Made by a program: the position numbers and the translations under genes
Notes under the pieces: model-generated
Database searches by the model: none
What the model saw: the letters and a program-made list of their open reading frames with translations, nothing else
What the model was told of the DNA's origin: nothing
In this document: positions 13,192 through 40,250 of the stretch, one piece after another
How positions within the stretch are numbered: position 1 is the first letter of the stretch
Layout: the number at the start of each line of letters is the position of its first letter
From: Gordius sp. MW1
Taxonomy: Eukaryota > Nematomorpha > Gordioida > Gordea > Gordiidae
NCBI GenBank assembly: GCA_964036665.1
Contig: OZ038532.1
Span: 6,324,001 to 6,388,000, forward strand
Length of the DNA: 64,000 bases
Direction: 5' to 3'

Positions 13192-14753
13192 TAGAGATCT
13201 GCAACGGACCGTTTTTAGAAGGTCGGCCCACCCGTATTCGTTTTCAAAACTTCAAGGCCCGTCCGAGCCCGCCCGTAATTTTTTTAACACTTCAGGCTCG
13301 TCCATAAATTTTTTAGGCCTGTTTAAGCTCGGCCGTAAATTTTTTAGGCCTGTCCCTCCCCGTTAAGAAAAACGTCAGGCGCACCCAAGCCCGTTCAAAT
13401 TTTTTTAAAAGAACTCCGCGTTTGATTCATCAAAAATTTTACAAAATTTTATTTTACTTTTTAACGGGCATCATTAAATTGCAAAATTATTTTTTAGACA
13501 GTTTCTCAATCTCCGTTCTAAAGCAACAACCTAGACAAATTGGCAAAAGAAATTCACATAACAGAACATAAAAAGAGCAATTAACCAGAATTTGGCCCTT
13601 GGCCGGGGTCACATAAAGTAGAAGTAAGCAAGGGTCATTAATAATTTGCAAGGCATCATTTAGCCAGTTTAGTAATTATCCAATATATAACAACAACCTA
13701 GACAAATTGGCAAAAGAAATTTATGTATAAATGTAATCAGTCGGGCCCATAAACAATAATGGATATTGGGGAACTAGGTAAAAAAATTAAAGCCAACCAG
13801 CGGTCATTAGCTAGTCTATTTGTGAAAGCAAAACCAGCCCTTAAAATCCCGTATTAGTTTCTATAATGTTCTAACTTTATTGGTAAACAAATAAATAAGA
13901 ACGATTGGCCGTATTCGAGTTATAAATCAAATAAATAAAATACCGATCGGATAATGATCTTCAGAATATAAATGTATAAGTTGGACGATGGCCGGGGGAA
14001 AATATCCGTGCAACAAATCGGCTAGAACGGGTGACGTCTACAAGTAAACGAAGGTATTGGATTTGGGGCCGTTTGGTTCTTCGTATAATTGCAGTTTCTA
14101 GACCGAGAAGAAAAATATAAGATTAAAGGGCAGTGTAACAATCCAGCCTTATAAACCCTGTCGATGCGCTTTTCAATTTGCATGAGTGATGCCTTAAGAC
14201 AGGTCGATATACTGATTTCCACTAGTATAAGGCATGTCTTTTCATACTCGTCTGCTTCTAAATAGTGCCCATTTATTCATATAACTAATTAAATTACATT
14301 TTATTGACACACCCATAACTTTAAACATTATTCCCACCATTAGTTGGCAAGATACAACACGCTATCCTTCCTAGCTCATTTGCGTAAGCGCATCTGCGTA
14401 AACGTTAACCAAATTAAATTAAACCACAACTACAACAGTCTCCACGGCAATTACTTAAAAATTACAAGTTGGACAGGACACGACAACTAAAAGCGAGCCC
14501 ATAAATTGCATATCAATTAATAAATATGTCTGACTTTTACAGACCTTTCTAATTCCATGACCGTTTATATAATCTCTGCCCCGTTCAAGTCCGTTAAAAT
14601 AATCTCAGGCCCGCCTGAGTCTGTTCCATTGATTGTTAAGCCCGTCCGGGCCCAACCCATTAAAATTTTCATGATACAAAGCCCGTCCGTATTCGTCCGC
14701 GGGCCGGGATTTTAAGATCGTCCTCGGGCCGGGCCTACCCGTGCAGATCTCTA
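13192..14753. mobile_element. hAT-type DNA element with TAGAGATCTGCA termini
   Basis: The left end TAGAGATCTGCA and right end TGCAGATCTCTA are exact inverted complements. The flanking octamers GGTAGCGA (13184-13191) and GGTGGCGA (14754-14761) match at 7 of 8 positions, which fits an 8-bp hAT duplication. Both subterminal regions are GC-rich arrays of GGCCCGTCCGAGCCCGTCC-like repeats in a very AT-rich setting. The 1562-bp interior has no recognisable transposase; it includes a direct repeat (AACCTAGACAAATTGGCAAA near 13525 and 13690) and fragments of another dispersed repeat (about 13740-14520). It is probably a non-autonomous relative of 29990-37139. Confidence 0.85.
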
Positions 14754-28398: not shown

Positions 28399-29989
28399 AT
28401 ATCTAATATTAAATAAAAACTTTTAATAAAACTCTCAAAATAATTTTTATAATCTAAAATGCGTTAAATGTATTCCAACACACAAATATATCATTTTTAA
28501 AACAAAAAACGATTAAATACCTTTTTATCAAATTACAAATTTGAAAATTGCAATTAATCGCATACTTGCTACTTTGCTGTTCATATTTGTAGAATAATTA
28601 TCGACCTCAAATAGTGACTTTGCGATTCCACCCAGCAATCAGACCAATGATTCTGATAGAGAATTTTGTGATGAATAAGAATCTATTTTATTTTTTATTT
28701 TTTCTATAACTTCCAGTTATTTATATTCACGAGTTTGAAGGTGCGAAAAATGCTTATTTAAACCTTTTTTGAGGTAATATTGCCAGCCACGGCATATTTA
28801 ATTTATATTAAAAGAAATAATTTATTCTTGCGACAAAATATAATTAGATGGCCTTAATCAGTATATAAAGATGGTATAAATATTTATATAAGTGTTGCAC
28901 TTATTTAATAAAATTCTTACCTGTCACTTTTATTAATTTTGCATTTCGTGCTATATCACTTTTCTACACTTTTAGAGCTTATTATATTAGTTTCTCGTTC
29001 AAATTTCATGTTTAAGATGGCTAACGACTTTAATTTAGTAGTGTAGGGGTTTATTGCATATTGATTTTTGTCACTTTCCTTAAATTAAAATTACATTTAG
29101 AAATGACTGTATCAACTATGGATATAGATATTTTAATTAAACAAAGATAACGCTTAGCATTTATTCGAATTTATAAATGATAACCTTTGAAAAAGTCTAT
29201 TTGACGACCCCATTTTTGTATAAAAAAGTAATGTATAATAGTAAAAACGTGATGTTGAACAAATTACAACATTCCGAGTCTTAAGAAATTTCCTCAATAA
29301 TAATTTACGGATCAAGGTGTAGATTATAATCAAACCCTAAAAAATCCACCTAATCAATTGCCCAGGATATCCTATTGACAATATTCGCAATGAATGTTGG
29401 ATAATTTTAGAATTTATGAATGGACCGGCCCGGACCTGGCCTGAAATGTATGGAAAAATTATGGACGGGCCCGAGCGGGCCTAAAGTTTTTCAAACGGGT
29501 ACGGACGGGCCTGAAGTGAACAAAATAAGTTATGGACGGGCTCGGGGGGGGCCTGAAAGGAGAAACGGAAACGGGCGGACCTACCTCTTAAAAAGGGCCC
29601 GTTGCAGATCTCTTATTTATAGATTAAAACAAAGTTTATCAAATTCAATGTAATGTATCACTAGCTAGTGTCGAGCGCCTTTTTAGTCTTGGTAAATTAA
29701 TATTTAGCGGAGAGTTTATGAGTTTATTAGATGATACTCTTGAATGTAAATGCTTACAGAAGTCAGATTTGTTCCAATTTTTCTACCCAAATCCGGCCCG
29801 GTCCAGCTTTATAACTAAACTGCCCTCCCGAGCCCGCCCAAACCCTTCTAAGTATTCATTTGGCCATGCCCAAATCATTGGAGATGTCCGAAATAATGTT
29901 TTACAAATTTTTTAGCAATAATATTGTTTAATTTTGTAAAAAATTATATTGTAATTTTGAATTTTTTGGGTTAGAAATAGGATTCCAAC
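28399..29989. other. Intergenic region upstream of GTF3C6, with hAT fragments
   Basis: The first kilobase is AT-rich with no supportable feature and presumably holds the GTF3C6 promoter. From about 29410 onward the sequence is hAT debris: a GC-rich subterminal array (about 29415-29615, ending GCAGATCTCT) and a transposase remnant. Confidence 0.5.
29655..29790 (+). pseudogene. hAT transposase dimerisation-domain remnant
   Basis: The plus-strand frame reads VSLASVERLFSLGKLIFSG followed by a LLDDTLECKCLQK tail. This is the hallmark SxxVERxFS...L.F...R..L.D...E...L..K pattern of the hAT C-terminal dimerisation region. Only this fragment remains; the sequence upstream is a GC-rich hAT terminus, suggesting rearranged or nested copies. 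It is probably from the autonomous relative that mobilised the TAGAGATCTGCA elements (inference). Confidence 0.8.
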
Positions 29990-30436
29990 TAGAGATCTGC
30001 AAGGGCCGTTTTTAGAAGGTCGGCCCGCCCGTACCCGTTTTCAACACTTCAGGCCCGTTCAAGCCCGTCCGTAAATTTTAGGCCCGTCCGAGCCCGTCCG
30101 TAAATTTTTCAGGCCCGTTCGTACCTGTTTAGAAAAACGTCAGGCCCGCTCAAGCCCGTTCAAATTTGTTTAAAACTCCGCTCCCGGTGTAATGTTCAAT
30201 TCGCGTATCGTTTGATATCGCGTAAGTCAATCAAACACGTCAATCATGTATTTTTGCACTATAATTGCAAAAAAGATTATTATAGGCTGGTATAAATGTC
30301 GATTAAAAATTGTGGTTTGTTATACAATAATTTTGTTAAGATTTTTCAATAAAGTTTTAACAAAATATAAATTAAGCTTCATATATTTTTTTTAATAAAG
30401 GTTCAACATAATATAAATTAAGCTTCATTAAATATT

Positions 30437-30615
30437 TAATTTTAACTATTATAAACAAATTCAATTAATTTATATGTATTAAGTTTTTTAAACTATTAAA
30501 GAAAGTGGGGAACTTAAATAATATTTAATTTTAACTAATAAAAACAAATTCAATTAATTTATATGTATTAAGTTTTTTAAACTATTATAGAAACTGGGGA
30601 ACTTAAATAATTATT
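30437..30615. repeat. Two-copy tandem repeat, unit about 88 bp
   Basis: The unit starting ATTTAATTTTAACTA and ending GGGGAACTTAAATAAT occurs twice in succession with few differences. It lies inside the hAT element left of the LTR insertion. Confidence 0.8.
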
Positions 30616-31062
30616 TTATATAAAGGATCTTATAATCCCTGATGATCTTAGGTGTCATATATATGGTTTTAATTCTTTTTTAAGTGATCCAATCTATATA
30701 AATTTAGTTTATTAAATTTATTTTGCATCTGATTAAGCTGTTATAATATAAAATAGTGATATTGATATTATTATTATAATAAATATATATTTTTAGCCAT
30801 TACATATCATCTTTATTGGATAAAGGCATATTAAAACCATGTTTTGTCAAATATCAATTAGACATTGAAATAAGAATAATACATTTTATTTAAAGTAAAT
30901 ATAAAGTAAAAACAGTATATATAAAACAATTGTATTGTAACTGTGGAGGATAATTGACGAAATGTAACTTACGCTTAAGTTCTATCATACTGGTGGAGTA
31001 AAAGTCAACGCAACAGATGGCATTATCTTCCTTATCGCGTGATATCGCGTGATTTCCTTATC

Positions 31063-32796
31063 AAAACTCTAACCACGAAATTCTCCAATAAACACAACTA
31101 CCACTCGCTACATAACGACAATCGCAATCCCAACGACTCCTTGAACCAAACAAAGGTATGGGAAGAACATTTTCGATCAATCCTGACCATACCAATTCCA
31201 TTTCCCTTCTCTGATATATACTTAGAGTTTATTAATAACTTCAAATGTCCTCCCACCTCTTTTATTAAGGATGATCCACCGACCCTAGGCGAAATAAAGT
31301 CCGCAGTAAAATCTCTCAAACTACATAAAGCCCCAGACGGAGCGGAAATTACAGCCGAGGCCCTTAAGGCTGATCTTAACCTTTCATCCAAGCTCCTGCT
31401 CTCTCTCTTCTCCAAGATCTGGACTCAGGAGTCCATCCCCCATTCATGGTCCACTGGCTTGCTTAGCAAAATTTACAAAAAAGGAGATCCTTCTATCCCT
31501 GACAATTATAGAGGGATCACTATAATAAATAACATTTTTAAAATTTTCATAAAAATCATATACAGACGGATCTACCCTTATGTCGACAATAACCTAAAGA
31601 CCAACCAGGCGGGTTTTCGAAAGTCCAAAACAACTATTGAACACATTCTAACCCTCAAGAATCTAATGGACATTTCTTCCAAAGCAAAAACACCCCTAAT
31701 CCTAACCTTTGTTGACATCCATAAAGCTTTTGACTCACTCTCCCACCTCTACATATGGGAATCCTTATGCCTCATTGGTATCCCCAAAAAAATCATTAGA
31801 CTTATCTTCTAGCTCTATAAAGACATGAAGGTGGTCGTCAAACATCTTCACCACCGGTCCAACCCTATCTTAGTCAATTCTGGAGTTAGGCAGGGGTGCC
31901 CACTCTCACCTCTCATATTCATCACTGCCATGGACCTCATAATAAAGAGATCGACACTTCCATTTGACGGTATCAACTTGGGTGAACAAAAAATATCTTC
32001 CCTCTTATTCGCAGACGATCTTTGCATAGTCTCCGACTCGATCTCCAGAACTCAGAACTTCATTGACAGATTCACCATGGAGACCCAGAAAGCGGGTCTA
32101 ATGATAAACCCTAACAAATCCAATATCCTATCAATCAATTTACCATTGCAATCAAAACCCGTTCTCATTGATAATACTCAAGTCCCCATCTCAGATTCAG
32201 TTAATTATCTTGGAGTCACTCTCTCCTACGACACATACTCCCTTTTAGACATCTCGAATAAAATAGGAAAAGCCCTGAAAAAATTCTACTCGTGCTACTC
32301 TATATGGAAGTCGCATGAACTGGCCCTACCAACCCGCCTCCGCATGTTCAAAACCACTATCTTACCCATTCTACTCTATGGCTGTGAAACGTGGTCTCTC
32401 AAAGGCCCGACTCTTAGAACGGCCCAAACAAAACTCAATAAAATGCTAAAGATAGTATGTAATATTTTCTACCCGGAAGTAATCAGCAACGTCAACCTCT
32501 GGACCCTTTGTAAAATCCCTCCCATTAAAAACGTAATAATTTCTCGGAAATGGAACTTCCTGGCACATCAGTCTAGACGCAGTGGTATTAACATATGTCT
32601 AAGTTCTATTTTTTGGAGACCCCCGCAATTACGAACCCTCAAATGCAGAGGAAGCTGGATTTATCAAACCTTTCAGCAACTCAGGTCCCTCAACCACGAT
32701 TGGAATTCACTCCTCCCTATAATGCAGGACAGGACGGATTGGAAAACCTTCTCTTCGTCCCACTTTCCCAAGTCGTACCCTCCCGTGACGAGATAA
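31063..32796 (+). pseudogene. LINE reverse transcriptase with one in-frame stop
   Basis: One frame runs through the region with a single TAG at 31810-31812. Before the stop are a KAPDGAEITAEALK block, KKGDPSIPDNYRGI, NQAGFRKSKTTIEHIL and catalytic motif A FVDIHKAFDSL. After it come motif B RQGCPLSPLIF, motif C FADDLCIV (the FADD box), the YLGVTLS block and LLYGCETW. These are the ordered motifs of a LINE reverse transcriptase with its thumb region. The 5' part, including any apurinic endonuclease, is lacking. The stop separates motifs A and B, so no full-length enzyme can be made from this copy. Confidence 0.9.
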
Positions 32797-32860
32797 ATAC
32801 TAATTTTCGTCCTACCTAGCGCCACATCCCGTTCACTCTGTCAAAAGAATATCGTATTCA

Positions 32861-32908
<48 letters not shown>

Positions 32909-33085
32909 TGACTACTAAAATACTAATCCATTTGTATATATACATATACTAACACACTAACCACTAACCTACTAACAATTGAACACGTAACCTCTGGTTA
33001 TCGTGGCCCGAGATGCACCGCAGAGGTGTCAGATGGGACTCAATCTTAGCTTGCCGATTTAGCTAAGCTCTTGAATGTCATCGGG

Positions 33086-33364
33086 GCAAATACATACATA
33101 CATACATACATACATACATACATACATACATACATACATACATACATACATACATACATACATACATACATACATACATACATACATACATACATACATA
33201 CATACATACATACATACATACATACATACATACATACATACATACATACATACATACATACATACATACATACATACATACATACATACATACATACATA
33301 CATACATACATACATACATACATACATACATACATACATACATACATACATACATACATACATA
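33086..33364. repeat. (CATA)n microsatellite, about 275 bp
   Basis: This is an essentially uninterrupted CATA array of about 68 units. It is the 3' tail of the LINE, lying between its 3' UTR (ending CATCGGGGCAAATA) and the target duplication. Confidence 0.95.
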
Positions 33365-33576
33365 CCTTATCGCGTGATAGATATAGTTTTATCGCGATTA
33401 TTCTCATATCATTATCATATATATTCGTCGCGCGCGTTGAATTATCGTGGAGTTTGGGTAAATAAAGTCGTGTAGACTATAACATTCTCGAGGCTCACAA
33501 GTCGAGTTGACTATAACATTGTGACCTCAACATTTGGCGTCGTGAGAACCTACCGGGAAATAAATCAAAAGAGGGA

Positions 33577-34485
33577 ATGGATCGGAACATTATGGATTTA
33601 TTCCGGTTATCCGATGCTATTGAAACATTCGTAATTCAATTCGAGGCCAATATAAAGGCCAAATCAGTGACGTTATCGGATACCCATAAAACGTGCAGAT
33701 TTCTAAGTTCGTTATCGGCGGAGGCATTTAAGGTTATCGCGGACGACGCGTACCCGGATAACCCTACTGAATGGACTTTCGAGGAAGCGACCAAGAGGGC
33801 AAGGAGAGTATTTAAAGGGCATACCTGCCCGCTGGCGCAGAGATTCAGGTTTGGAAATATTCGTCAAATGCCCGGGGAGGAACTCATGCGTTATATTCGA
33901 AGGCTAAAAGAGGCATCAAAGGACTGCGGTTTTCAGCCCGGGGAATTATCGGCCAGAATGCTCGTTCAGCTGATTTTAGGGCTCTACGACCCAACGGTGC
34001 AAGCCGCGTTGATGGCCGAAAAGGACCTCAAATGGGACAAGGCCGTGGAAATCGCCCTAGGTCGGGAGGCAATCGGCGAAGGCCTAAGGACTATGCACCA
34101 GCCAGGAGACGAGGCATTTGCGGTCGACGCGAAGAGGACGGGCCCGAGTATGACCAGGTTCGGCCATGCATTAGATATTTTGACTATTGATTTATATGTT
34201 AATAACACCTTGATAACTTTTCTTATGGACACGGGCTCCACCGTAACAATCGTGCCGGCTAACTTGTGGAAGGAGCGTTTACCGGTGCAAACAAACCCGA
34301 TACCTTCCGTACATGCGTTCGGCGGCAAGGAGATAAAGATTATCGGGGACGTAACAGCCGAGGCCCGTCTAGGTTCCACCCGGAAGCGCCTGCCGCTGTT
34401 AGTGGCGGCTGTAAAAGGACCGCCTTTACTCGGAACGAACTGGATAAAAGAGTTCGGAAAAAACGTATGGGAGCTAGCCAAATGA
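33577..34485 (+). CDS. LTR retrotransposon Gag-protease polyprotein
   Basis: This 302-residue ORF starts 44 bp after the 5' LTR. The N-terminal two thirds is a retrotransposon Gag (capsid) domain: helical, with FLSSLSAEAFKVI, WTFEEATKRARRVF, MPGEELMRYIRRLKEASKDC and MLVQLILGLYDPTVQAAL, the gag order seen in invertebrate Gypsy elements. No CCHC zinc knuckle is present. The C-terminal third is a retropepsin-type aspartic protease with the active-site FLMDTGSTVTIVP near residues 212-224 and the flap-side LLGTNWIKEFG near the end. The ORF stops where reverse transcriptase would begin in an intact element. Confidence 0.85.
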   Translation: MDRNIMDLFRLSDAIETFVIQFEANIKAKSVTLSDTHKTCRFLSSLSAEAFKVIADDAYPDNPTEWTFEEATKRARRVFKGHTCPLAQRFRFGNIRQMPGEELMRYIRRLKEASKDCGFQPGELSARMLVQLILGLYDPTVQAALMAEKDLKWDKAVEIALGREAIGEGLRTMHQPGDEAFAVDAKRTGPSMTRFGHALDILTIDLYVNNTLITFLMDTGSTVTIVPANLWKERLPVQTNPIPSVHAFGGKEIKIIGDVTAEARLGSTRKRLPLLVAAVKGPPLLGTNWIKEFGKNVWELAK

Positions 34486-34500
34486 AATTCGCGAACCGTC

Positions 34501-35460
34501 ATGGAGCGCTACATAGTGAATTTCGTCGAGATCGGTTTGATTGGCCAGGTACCACAACAACCAAGCGTCGTAGCACCAGCGCAAGCGGTTTCTAGTGTCC
34601 CGAGCTCCGCATCTCAGCGACAATCTGTAATTCCACTCAACCCCAATAAGCCTGGCGCTAAGAACGCGACACCGGACCAAGATCGAGGTCAAGCCATGGC
34701 TGCCATCAAGGCTAAGGATAACGCAGCCAAATTTCGGTCGAGACGATCAAGCAAGCGTGCTTTCCAAGTTACCGAAGAGGGACTAGAGGATTCCGCGAAC
34801 GCGTTTATCTCACGGAACGTGATACGCCAGTACGCCGCTAACGACGAGACATTACAGCAGCACAAAGGGTGGAGTAAGGGTACGCGCGAAACAACAGTAG
34901 TGGTCGGGCCAAGGCGACACTACAAAAGGTACCTACCTAAGCTGCACGAGTCAAGGGAAGCGTTAAGGGAACCTGTGGCCCCCCAGTGGAGAGATACAGG
35001 AAAGGCGCGAGGGTTCGACGTCGGAGACCCAGTGTGGGTGCGTATGTTCCTGGGGCCCGATAAATGGGTGAAGGGCACCATTAGTGCCAAGCGCGAGGCG
35101 CGCTCGTTCGGCGTTAGGGCCCTAGGGAGAAACCACCATCGACATTTAGAGCAGGTGAGACGAAGGAAAATATTGGACTGTAGAAGGGTTGGACACGAAA
35201 ATGGTTGGCCGCACCGGGATACACTAGCGAACGAGCCAATTGATGCGAGCCCGTGCCAACAACGTCCAATCAAGGGTCCCCTACCAAGGTTCCGAACGAA
35301 AATGCCGCTACAGGAGCGGGGGGAACACGAAGTCCTTCCCATGGCTCTGGAGTTTAACAACGCCCCGCCTGAAGTTAGATACCCACGCCAGGTACGACAG
35401 GCCCCGAGCTACCTAAGGCACTATCTTTGTGAAAAGGGGGGAAGTGTGGAGGATAATTGA
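34501..35460 (+). pseudogene. Remnant Gypsy integrase C-terminal region
   Basis: This 319-codon ORF begins 15 bp after the Gag-protease stop. Its middle carries a typical Gypsy integrase C-terminal domain: FDVGDPVWVRMFLGPDKWVK followed by GTISAKREARSFGVRALG and a RHLEQVRRR ending. Sequence before it (34501-34980) has no recognisable core catalytic domain, so the reverse transcriptase, RNase H and integrase core were deleted and the remaining DNA is a chimeric open frame. The stop codon lies inside the 3' LTR. It cannot work as an integrase alone. Confidence 0.75.
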
Positions 35461-35716
35461 CGAAATGTAACTTACGCTTAAGTTCTATCATACTGGTGGA
35501 GTAAAAGTCAACGCAACAGATGGCATTATCTTCCTTATCGCGTGATTTCCTTATCGCGTGATAAATATAGTTTTATCGCGATTATTCTCATATCATTATC
35601 ATATATATTCGTCGCGCGCGTTGAATTATCGTGGAGTTTGGGTAAATAAAGTCGTGTAGACTATAACATTCTCGAGGCTCACAAGTCGAGTTGACTATAA
35701 CATTGTGACCTCAACA
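35445..35716 (+). repeat. 3' LTR of the Gypsy-type element
   Basis: This 272-bp LTR begins TGTGG and ends CAACA, preceded by a polypurine tract. It contains repeats of TTATCGCGTGAT and an AATAAA motif near 35644. It matches the two halves of the 5' LTR, which differs by an extra ATATCGCGTG-like duplication and a single-base change. Confidence 0.92.
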
Positions 35717-35874
35717 GTAACAATTAATATATTTTATGAACAACTATCAAATATATAGGAATAGTCCCATTTTTCATATACTCCATAATCTCAGCAAAAC
35801 CATATTCTTCCATTCTATTAAATAAATGCCAAATTAATCAAATAAATTATGTAGTTTAATATTTATAATATTAG

Positions 35875-36185
35875 GAACTTATAAGGCATACATCTAAAAA
35901 GGTAAATAACAAACTTTTGCATTAGCTTATATTTATAATCTTAGGAACTTACTTAGTACAAAATACAAAGTTTATTCAACAATTATAGAAGCATACATCT
36001 AAAAAGGTAAATAACAAACTTTTGCATTAGCTTATATTTACAATCTTAGGAACTTACTTATTACAAAATACAAAGTTTACTACAATTTCAACAATTATAG
36101 AAGCATACATCTAAAAAGGTAAACAACAAACTTTTGCATTAGTTTATATTTATAATCTTAGGAACTTACTTATTACAAAATACAA
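35875..36185. repeat. Tandem repeat, about three units of 106-114 bp
   Basis: The unit has TCTTAGGAACTTACTTA, ACAAAATACAAAGTTTA, AACAATTATAGAAGCATACA and AACTTTTGCATTAGCTTATA in order. The GGAACTTA landmark occurs at about 35875, 35943, 36049 and 36163. It lies inside the hAT element right of the LTR insertion. Confidence 0.8.
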
Positions 36186-37147
36186 GATTATATTGGTGAA
36201 AAAGTTTGCAAATTACGTGATCTCAAATGCATGTCATTACGTGAAATGAAATGTATGTTTTTCCGAAATTTGAACCAATCATGTTACTTAAAAAATCACG
36301 TGACTGGGAAAAAAAGTACTTTTGTCGTGTTTTTAACGAATGTGGAGGCGTGATTGACGATTACGCGATCTCAAACGCTACGTCGTCTCATACGCTACAA
36401 TATTCCACTTTCAACATTTTACTTTTATTTGATTAATTTAAGTTAATACACCTAAGATTTTTCATGGTTATCATTAAATTAAGATACTTTAATAAAATTA
36501 CATGAAAATATTTAATTTTAAATAAGTAGTTTACATTGTTTTGATTAATTTATATCAGTATATACACCTAAGTTTTAGATTAGAACAAAAATGTATATTA
36601 AATTATATGGCCTTAATATACCAGTAAAATTTGTGGTACAATTAAACACAAAATTTTGGTGCATTGTAAATAAGCAATTGAACTTACTTTTAAAAGAATA
36701 TATTTGAAGCTATAATCTTAAATTATGTAAACATAAATCTATAACAAATAGAATAAAAATGTTTTAAAGTCAAATTTAGCGCTTGAAAAAGGAATTAATG
36801 CTACAGGATATACGAATTAGGGGTTTAAAAATTAAGCAATTAATAATCTAAATTATCAATAAAAAAAATATATTTATAGAATTGTCTGACTTTTAAGGAC
36901 CTTTGTAATTCCATGACCGTTTATATAATCTCTGGCCCGTTCAAGCCTGATTATAAATCGTCAGGCCCGTTCAAGCCCGTTAAAAAAATCTCAGGCCCGC
37001 CCGAGCCCGTTCCACTGATTTTTAAGCCCGTCCGGGCCCGGCCCGTTAAAATTTTTATGATAAAAAGCCCGTCCGTACCCGCCCGCGGGCCGGGCTTTTA
37101 GGCCCGTCCGCGGGCCGGGCCTGCCCGTGCAGATCTCTAATTCCAAC

Positions 37148-38217
37148 TACTATACAAACAAAATAAATATGTCACAAAATTATATAAAAAAACAAAATAA
37201 TACAATAGTAAAAAATATCATTGAGCCCGAATTCCCCGAATCTTGTTATTGTGCCCGCCCTGACCAGTATTTTAATTTACTAATAGTTGCCCAGCCCGGC
37301 CTGGCGGGCAGATTTAGCAGCGAGCCGGGCTTTTCTGGTCTCGGATGTGTTATTGAAATCGAATTATTATAATGCTCTCTGATTTATAAATTTGAGTAAA
37401 TTATACTAATATATATTGTTTTATTAAATAGCGGAAATTTAACTGTGTAACCTTAAATATTATTTCGTAATTCAGTTACTTATAAAAAATGTAACTGTAA
37501 CCGTAATTAATTACATATTTTTTGCAAGTGACTGTAACCTAACTTAATGGCTCTCTATAAAAGGTGTTGGTGGAAATAATTGATTTTCTCGAATGACTCA
37601 TTGGCAAATATTTTGTTATTTACCTTAAAAAATTCATAAATAATAATTTGTGTTGTTGCTACCATTTATTGTGCTTTTATTCTTATTACTCAAATCTTTA
37701 AAATATTAGGGTGCCTGAGACATAAGAGATTTTTATAGATAAATATATTTTCTTACTTTCAATAAATATTAATTTTCAAATAGGATATAAAACCTATTAA
37801 TTTTTTAAAGTCATTTAATTATATGACTAACAAACTTCTCTAAACATCAGTTGCAAAAATCTGGTCAATTGTATAAACATATATTTAATGGCCGAACGAA
37901 AAAACGTAAACAATTAGTGGTCCATAAGTCTTAAAGTAAATTGTTATTTTTCATTTGCATTTTGTTATATTCGCTTGAAAAATAAATACCATAATTAAAT
38001 TTTTTTTCCGAATCTAACAGTAAATTATAGATGTAATGCATTATGCATAAATTAACGGATATATCAAGCAACTAATATGATGAGTTTATTTAATATGTAA
38101 ATAGCAACACATAAGAATGCATATGATTTATTGCCCGATTTCTAAAAAGAAATAAAAATAAATTAAAATTTAACGTAAAATAAGCATGAGATTTATTAAC
38201 TTCAGCAATTAACTTTT
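37148..38217. other. Non-coding AT-rich stretch with a small hAT-like GC patch
   Basis: Between the hAT element and the secreted-protein gene I see no gene. A GC-rich patch at about 37215-37335 (GCCCAGCCCGGCCTGGCGGG) resembles hAT subterminal sequence and may be another fragment. Confidence 0.4.
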
Positions 38218-39540: not shown

Positions 39541-40220
39541 TGTGTATGTATGTATGTATGTATGTATGTATGTATGTATGTATGTATGTATGTATGTATG
39601 TATGTATGTATGTATGTATGTATGTATGTATGTATGTATGTATGTATGTATGTATGTATGTATGTATGTATGTATGTATGTATGTATGTATGTATGTATG
39701 TATGTATGTATGTATGTATGTATGTATGTATGTATGTATGTATGTATGTATGTATGTATGTATGTATGTATGTATGTATGTATGTATGTATGTATGTATG
39801 TATGTATGTATGTATGTATGTATGTATGTATGTATGTATGTATGTATGTATGTATGTATGTATGTATGTATGTATGTATGTATGTATGTATGTATGTATG
39901 TATGTATGTATGTATGTATGTATGTATGTATGTATGTATGTATGTATGTATGTATGTATGTATGTATGTATGTATGTATGTATGTATGTATGTATGTATG
40001 TATGTATGTATGTATGTATGTATGTATGTATGTATGTATGTATGTATGTATGTATGTATGTATGTATGTATGTATGTATGTATGTATGTATGTATGTATG
40101 TATGTATGTATGTATGTATGTATGTATGTATGTATGTATGTATGTATGTATGTATGTATGTATGTATGTATGTATGTATGTATGTATGTATGTATGTATG
40201 TATGTATGTATGTATGTATG

Positions 40221-40250
<30 letters not shown>
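39541..40250. repeat. (TGTA)n microsatellite, about 710 bp
   Basis: This is about 177 uninterrupted tetranucleotide units. Read on the minus strand it is (ACAT)n and directly follows a LINE-like 3' end at 40251-40420, so it is best explained as that element's expanded tail. Long ORFs in every frame here are artefacts of the repeat. Confidence 0.97.

Follow-up and report, generated by a model that had tools for sequence, protein, structure and literature searches.

How many insertions built the block of repeats in the middle of this 64,000-nucleotide stretch of the Gordius sp. MW1 genome (the window, G000:C6:6324001-6388000), and in what order did they occur? The earlier note had described a three-level nest, with a LINE in the 5' LTR of a Gypsy-type element and that element in a hAT. 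This description is incomplete. Read against the assembled genome (211.8 Mb, 12 contigs), the block very probably (we put it at roughly 93%) consists of five mobile elements nested through four insertions: from the outside inwards, an old repeat called Y, the hAT, a Ginger1-type transposon, the Gypsy-type LTR element and the LINE. Every one of these is of a known, ordinary kind. The features are given below; the duplications of the hAT, LTR element and LINE, and both LTRs, were read from the sequence.

29757..37344, forward strand: Y, an old, apparently hAT-like repeat with ends of the CAGA...TCTG type, split by the hAT (left part 29757-29989, right part 37148-37344)
29982..29989, no strand: hAT target duplication, left copy, ATTCCAAC
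29990..37139, forward strand: non-autonomous hAT, own sequence 29990-30187 plus 36400-37139, from its ends, duplication and sister copies of up to 93% identity
30184..30187, no strand: CCGG target, left copy, native in all four hAT copies read
30188..36399, forward strand: unit best read as a non-autonomous Ginger1-type transposon (TGTAATG...CGCTACA), right CCGG missing
30937..30941, no strand: LTR-element target duplication, left copy, GTAAC
30942..35716, forward strand: internally deleted Gypsy-type LTR element (2,466 bp once the LINE is taken out)
30942..33532, forward strand: 5' LTR, interrupted by the LINE
31056..31062, no strand: LINE target duplication, left copy, CCTTATC
31063..33364, forward strand: 5'-truncated LINE with a stop at 31810-31812 interrupting its reverse transcriptase (RT) frames, from frames, Pfam and sister copies
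33090..33365, forward strand: (ATAC)69 tail of the LINE, 276 bp, its last C shared with the duplication
33365..33371, no strand: LINE target duplication, right copy, CCTTATC
33577..34485, forward strand: Gag-like and aspartic-protease region (RVP 5.5e-5; PNMA 2e-4, below its cut-off)
34530..34531, no strand: point of absence of a 165-bp stretch present in 7/7 sister copies read
35445..35716, forward strand: 3' LTR
35717..35721, no strand: LTR-element target duplication, right copy, GTAAC
36399..36400, no strand: junction at which the right CCGG is missing together with a hAT stretch that measures 165-176 bp in four hAT copies; the 28-mer across it has a single site in the genome
37140..37147, no strand: hAT target duplication, right copy, ATTCCAAC

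The boundaries drawn in the earlier note are borne out. The hAT ends were found (TAGAGATCTGCA at 29990, TGCAGATCTCTA at 37139) with ATTCCAAC on either side, the LTR ends (TGTGGAGG...CTCAACA) delimit 30942-35716 between copies of GTAAC, and the LINE at 31063-33364 lies within the 5' LTR between copies of CCTTATC. Non-autonomous members of the hAT superfamily are defined by an 8-bp target duplication and short inverted ends. The window hAT agrees with the superfamily in its 8-bp duplication, its short perfect inverted ends (12/12 matched, diverging beyond) and its GC-rich repeats near the ends, and a reading-frame check of its own sequence found neither a long frame nor a transposase. A search with 36403-36895 gave a best identity of 93% to another copy among the best 40 of 432 candidates scored, self included. 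Two further pieces of this hAT lie in the window: a full copy with the same ends at 13192-14753 (1,562 bp; flanks GGTAGCGA and GGTGGCGA, matching at 7/8 positions), and a reverse-oriented fragment of its end at 29456-29614, directly upstream of Y.

It is the host of the LTR element that was misread. The LTR element does lie inside the hAT bounds, but the sequence that it entered is a Ginger1-type transposon, itself inserted into the hAT, and 30188-36399, formerly taken as hAT interior, belongs to this additional layer. Four other hAT copies were fetched and read at the Ginger1 insertion site. All four lack the Ginger1 block and read CTCCCGGCCCAAT at the position of CTCCCGG directly followed by TGTAATG in the window. 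The distance from this CCGG to ATATTCC is 165, 174, 176 and 176 bp in these copies, and in the window ATATTCC directly abuts the Ginger1 end. Since the CCGG and the 165-176 bp beyond it are native in these copies, the left target copy is present in the window, and the right copy and a stretch of hAT are missing. The claim that all target duplications are readable thus fails for this layer.

With the LTR element and one GTAAC subtracted, the inserted unit is 1,432 bp long (TGTAATGTTCAATTCGCG...GTCTCATACGCTACA). A search with 30180-30941 (best 40 of 200 candidates scored, self included) left 11 other copies, L010-L020, in which the match starts at window position 30184 in nine, at 30185 in L017 and at 30177 in L018. 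None of the 11 shows a match to the hAT ends, and their right-hand matches stop at or before about 36402. In the ten whose right flank was reached (all but L011), this flank is CCGG in six and GCGG, CAGG and CTAC in one each, with L019 breaking off earlier. The LTR element is missing from its site in 11/11; a single GTAAC stands there in eight, seven of which (L014-L020) also lack some 17 bp immediately to its left, and L010, L012 and L013 carry other local changes. L013 (G000:C8:30751838 region), with flanks CCTG/CAGG, lies midway between the arms of a long inverted repeat; the first 200 bp of its surroundings on the two sides align ungapped as inverted copies, and 390/479 columns are identical overall.

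The absence of the right CCGG, which leaves a right junction with no clean duplication, could also mean that the Ginger1-like segment arrived by recombination, or within an amplified composite hAT, rather than by insertion at this locus. This is very unlikely, as the left junction is a native CCGG joined to an exact element end, and a genome search that allowed up to 3 mismatches found a single site for the 28-mer spanning the right junction, the junction searched. Movement of the nest as one unit was rejected on the same uniqueness of the right hAT-Ginger1 junction (one junction searched). Nor is there more than the slimmest chance that 30188-30941 and 35722-36399 are merely hAT interior in a nest of three layers. 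The hAT ends and their 8-bp duplication do enclose the whole block, but these stretches form an exact-ended unit found elsewhere, mostly flanked by CCGG, in differing surroundings and without hAT ends, and the four hAT copies read are without them.

The assignment of this inserted layer draws on its family. Genome pattern scans for the Ginger1 ends, with patterns that omitted flanks whose outermost base is T, found CCGG at 60/86 left ends (the window's own included) and at 63/76 right ends. When every left end was matched to the closest right end on its strand, at a distance of 0.5-7 kb, 60 pairs resulted and 26 left ends stayed unpaired. The 4-bp flanks are identical in 43 pairs (40 CCGG, and ACGG, GCGG and CCTG once each) and unequal in 17: eight with CAGG on the left, six that differ in other ways at one or two bases, and three with CCGG on the left and an unrelated right flank. 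The window copy, in which the left CCGG stands alone, resembles these last three.

Six pairs span 3,885-3,897 bp. Of these 3.9-kb copies, L073 and L074 share 98% identity and have CCGG at both ends; their identity to the window copy is as high as 94% in the right part, but on the left it is 74% over about 300 bp, beyond which there is no match. Separate frames of L074 carry Integrase_H2C2 (1.9e-7), OTU (1.5e-6, above cut-off), and rve (3.6e-6) and rve_3 (8.1e-5), both below their curated cut-offs; two of its five frames gave no Pfam hit, and GPY was seen by eye only (WLGPY), in a piece without a Pfam hit. The integrase-like and OTU domains of L074 are absent from the window copy.

Ginger1 elements, in the published excerpts compared here (PMC2836005), have TGTNR ends, terminal inverted repeats of 40-270 bp, a size of 2.6-7 kb, a Gypsy-like integrase with GPY/F, and an OTU or Ulp1 domain, and their target duplication is CCGG in 75% of cases and CCGT/ACGG in 24%. 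The family here agrees with those excerpts in its TGTNR start (TGTAA on the left; the right end reads TGTAG inwards) and its CCGG/ACGG 4-bp duplication. The 3.9-kb relative is likewise similar in size and in its H2C2 and DDE-integrase pieces and OTU protease, and both it and the described elements have their coding sequence distributed over several frames, as though introns interrupted it. The window copy differs from them in being non-autonomous, in its tandem repeats, in the loss of the right target copy, and in its imperfect inverted ends. These contain a 22-bp pair at 91% within a gapped 54-bp end alignment. Because of the TGTA/TACA ends, the mostly CCGG flanks and the domains of L074, the unit 30188-36399 is most plausibly a non-autonomous member of the Ginger1 group. 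Its insertion here, where the right CCGG is missing, is supported by this family evidence and by the native CCGG of the hAT copies.

The two innermost insertions are recent, as had been claimed. The two LTRs, whose alignment the earlier note recommended, show no substitution over the first 102 bp and a single one over the 168-bp 3' part; the short tandem repeat between these stretches differs in length. The LINE is 99-100% identical to its best sister copies. Among 20 fetched loci, nine have two full LTRs by end motifs, with 0-3 substitutions between them (none in 5/9); the 5-bp duplication is exact in eight of these nine sister pairs and has one mismatch in the other. Copies without the LINE, which were also to be sought, were found as nine sister elements with two LTRs of 247-286 bp each and as 12 other LTR copies identical across 121 bp up to the LINE insertion point.

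A Pfam scan of two frames of the window LTR element found no RT or integrase core. A longer relative, L055, whose LTR starts are 4.1 kb apart, has the order protease, RT, RNase H, integrase. The reading of the extra 165 bp of the sister elements as an intron was ruled out, since its edges are not GT...AG. The closest parallel is with internally deleted Gypsy-type derivatives (compare the TR-GAG elements of plants), which, as far as the excerpts describing them go, share LTRs, a 5-bp duplication and a protease and Gag-like region without RT. Set against those excerpts, the family here exists as a 2.5-2.8 kb form (nine copies measured), and it differs in a tail that by eye, and with no Pfam hit, we take to resemble an integrase C-terminus, and in the 165 bp missing from the window copy.

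The LINE shows the marks of a non-LTR element: a reverse transcriptase, a simple 3' tail, a target duplication and 5' truncation. RVT_1 matches the frames on both sides of the in-frame stop (1.1e-12 and 3.9e-16), and 8/11 sister copies extend further upstream than 31063, the other three being shorter. The duplication is of 6 or 7 bp, because one C is common to it and the (ATAC)n tail. In a search that scored the best 40 of 145 candidates, the best sister copies reach 100% (rounded) over 461 bp; across 2.0 kb, the highest identity is 99.1%. By a rough measure, the tail is 19-27 bp in eight of ten sister copies, 75 bp in one and 243 bp in one; from these mostly short lengths and the 276 bp here, it follows that the tail has grown at this locus or varies greatly. 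Three LINE copies elsewhere (G000:C3:1720498, 1726003 and 1731508) are spaced by exactly 5,505 bp, perhaps through tandem duplication. The window also contains a (GTAT)176 array (39544-40247), whose unit is that of the LINE tail in reverse complement; the array was considered as the tail of another LINE copy and rejected, as by eye no LINE 3' sequence adjoins it.

At the other extreme, the hAT is not the outermost layer, as had been supposed, but is itself inserted into the older repeat Y. The joined Y flanks align straight across the hAT junction in 11/14 copies, the other three covering one side only; the alignments are gapped and divergent. Y copies tend to end CAGAGGTCAG...CTGGTCTCTG. Among nine copies with their ends printed, exact 8-bp duplications were seen by eye at L034 (CTAGATAT), L037 (ATTGCTAT) and L048 (CAGTGAAC) and were not seen at L036, L042 and L045; L035 is a duplicate of L034, and the alignments of L039 and L043 are without one end. 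The window copy has no readable duplication (AATGCTTA vs ATGTGTTA). Judged solely by its end type and these 8-bp duplications, Y appears to be hAT-like. Beside it, the stretch 29628-29756 has an 80% match elsewhere; the frame here (29628-29912) contains ASVERLFSLGK, presumably a hAT-dimerisation-like motif, and a Pfam scan of this frame gave no hit.

The order of insertion is hAT into Y, Ginger1 into the hAT, the LTR element into Ginger1 and the LINE into the 5' LTR, so that the sequence hAT, LTR element, LINE given earlier was correct. This relative order follows from the nesting, and the best-copy identities agree with it, climbing inwards from about 77% for the left part of Y through 93% for the hAT, 94% for Ginger1 and 98% for the LTR element to 99-100% for the LINE. 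The hAT and Ginger1 values are too close to order these two, and nesting alone does so. The place of Y in such an age series seems less clean than one number suggests, because short stretches of its right part, 86-131 bp long, match elsewhere at 80-90%, although the same part compared over 170-190 bp shows about 75-77%, and the left part is at most 77% identical to any other copy. The boundaries and duplications are direct observations, as are the copies free of the next layer, which were found in the same genome for every layer. In a control for chance that counted identical k-mers at the same spacing across the window, real cases included and element ends ignored, matches occurred at 11/56,834 positions for 8-mers at the hAT spacing (0.02%), 141/59,215 for 5-mers at the LTR-element spacing (0.24%) and 5/61,691 for 7-mers at the LINE spacing (0.008%). 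That the assembly, the one source examined, has united separate loci across a block containing a simple repeat as long as (ATAC)69 has a very low probability, as three duplications abut exact element ends, which insertions make and misjoins do not, and the layer-free copies concur at the boundaries. Like nested transposons generally, in the portion of the literature compared (e.g. REANNOTATE, PMC2672092), the nest allows insertion order to be read from nesting; it differs from them in packing five elements, drawn from several superfamilies, into 7.6 kb.

The nest may thus be pictured as growing by ordinary steps. A hAT transposase supplied in trans would have put the non-autonomous hAT into Y, making the 8-bp duplication. 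A Ginger1 transposase, which would be Gypsy-integrase-like and could come from the 3.9-kb relatives carrying coding pieces in the same genome, would then have put a non-autonomous derivative at CCGG inside the hAT; either then or afterwards, some 170 bp of adjoining hAT would have been lost together with the right-hand CCGG. The Gypsy-type element, copied through RNA and integrated by proteins of its longer relatives, would next have entered the Ginger1 element with a 5-bp duplication. Lastly, the LINE would have reverse-transcribed itself into the 5' LTR, halting before its own 5' end and making a 6-7-bp duplication. All steps would then be ordinary transposition by trans-acting enzymes, and only the missing sequence at the right end of Ginger1 would be irregular. 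Relatives with enzyme domains were observed for the LTR and Ginger1 layers; the hAT and Y families were presumably moved by hAT transposases.

The left flanks of this Ginger1 family show an odd bias. CAGG flanks 13/86 left ends and 1/76 right ends (Fisher p 0.0015), and in the eight pairs with CAGG on the left, the right flank is CCGG in seven and GCGG in one. The bias does not look like CpG decay, which would yield CTGG or CCAG. The 13 left CAGG flanks (L075-L087) include three, L076, L085 and L086, that share one surrounding repeat; L082 adjoins another copy of the Ginger1 family, L087 has surroundings in common with L013, and the remaining eight are unrelated by eye. It is conceivable, though doubtful, that the family integrates with unequal target copies and that the missing right flank here is a product of the same enzyme.

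The block provides a test case for nest-aware annotation, since careful by-eye reading missed a whole layer framed by the ends of an outer element. For the genome itself, the nest fixes the relative order of five repeat families. It also places in this genome a Ginger1 family that has an odd left-flank bias and includes coding copies of 3.9 kb. If integration with unequal target copies is real, this bias could trace how the enzyme handles its left end, whether by carrying over donor bases or by biased gap repair.
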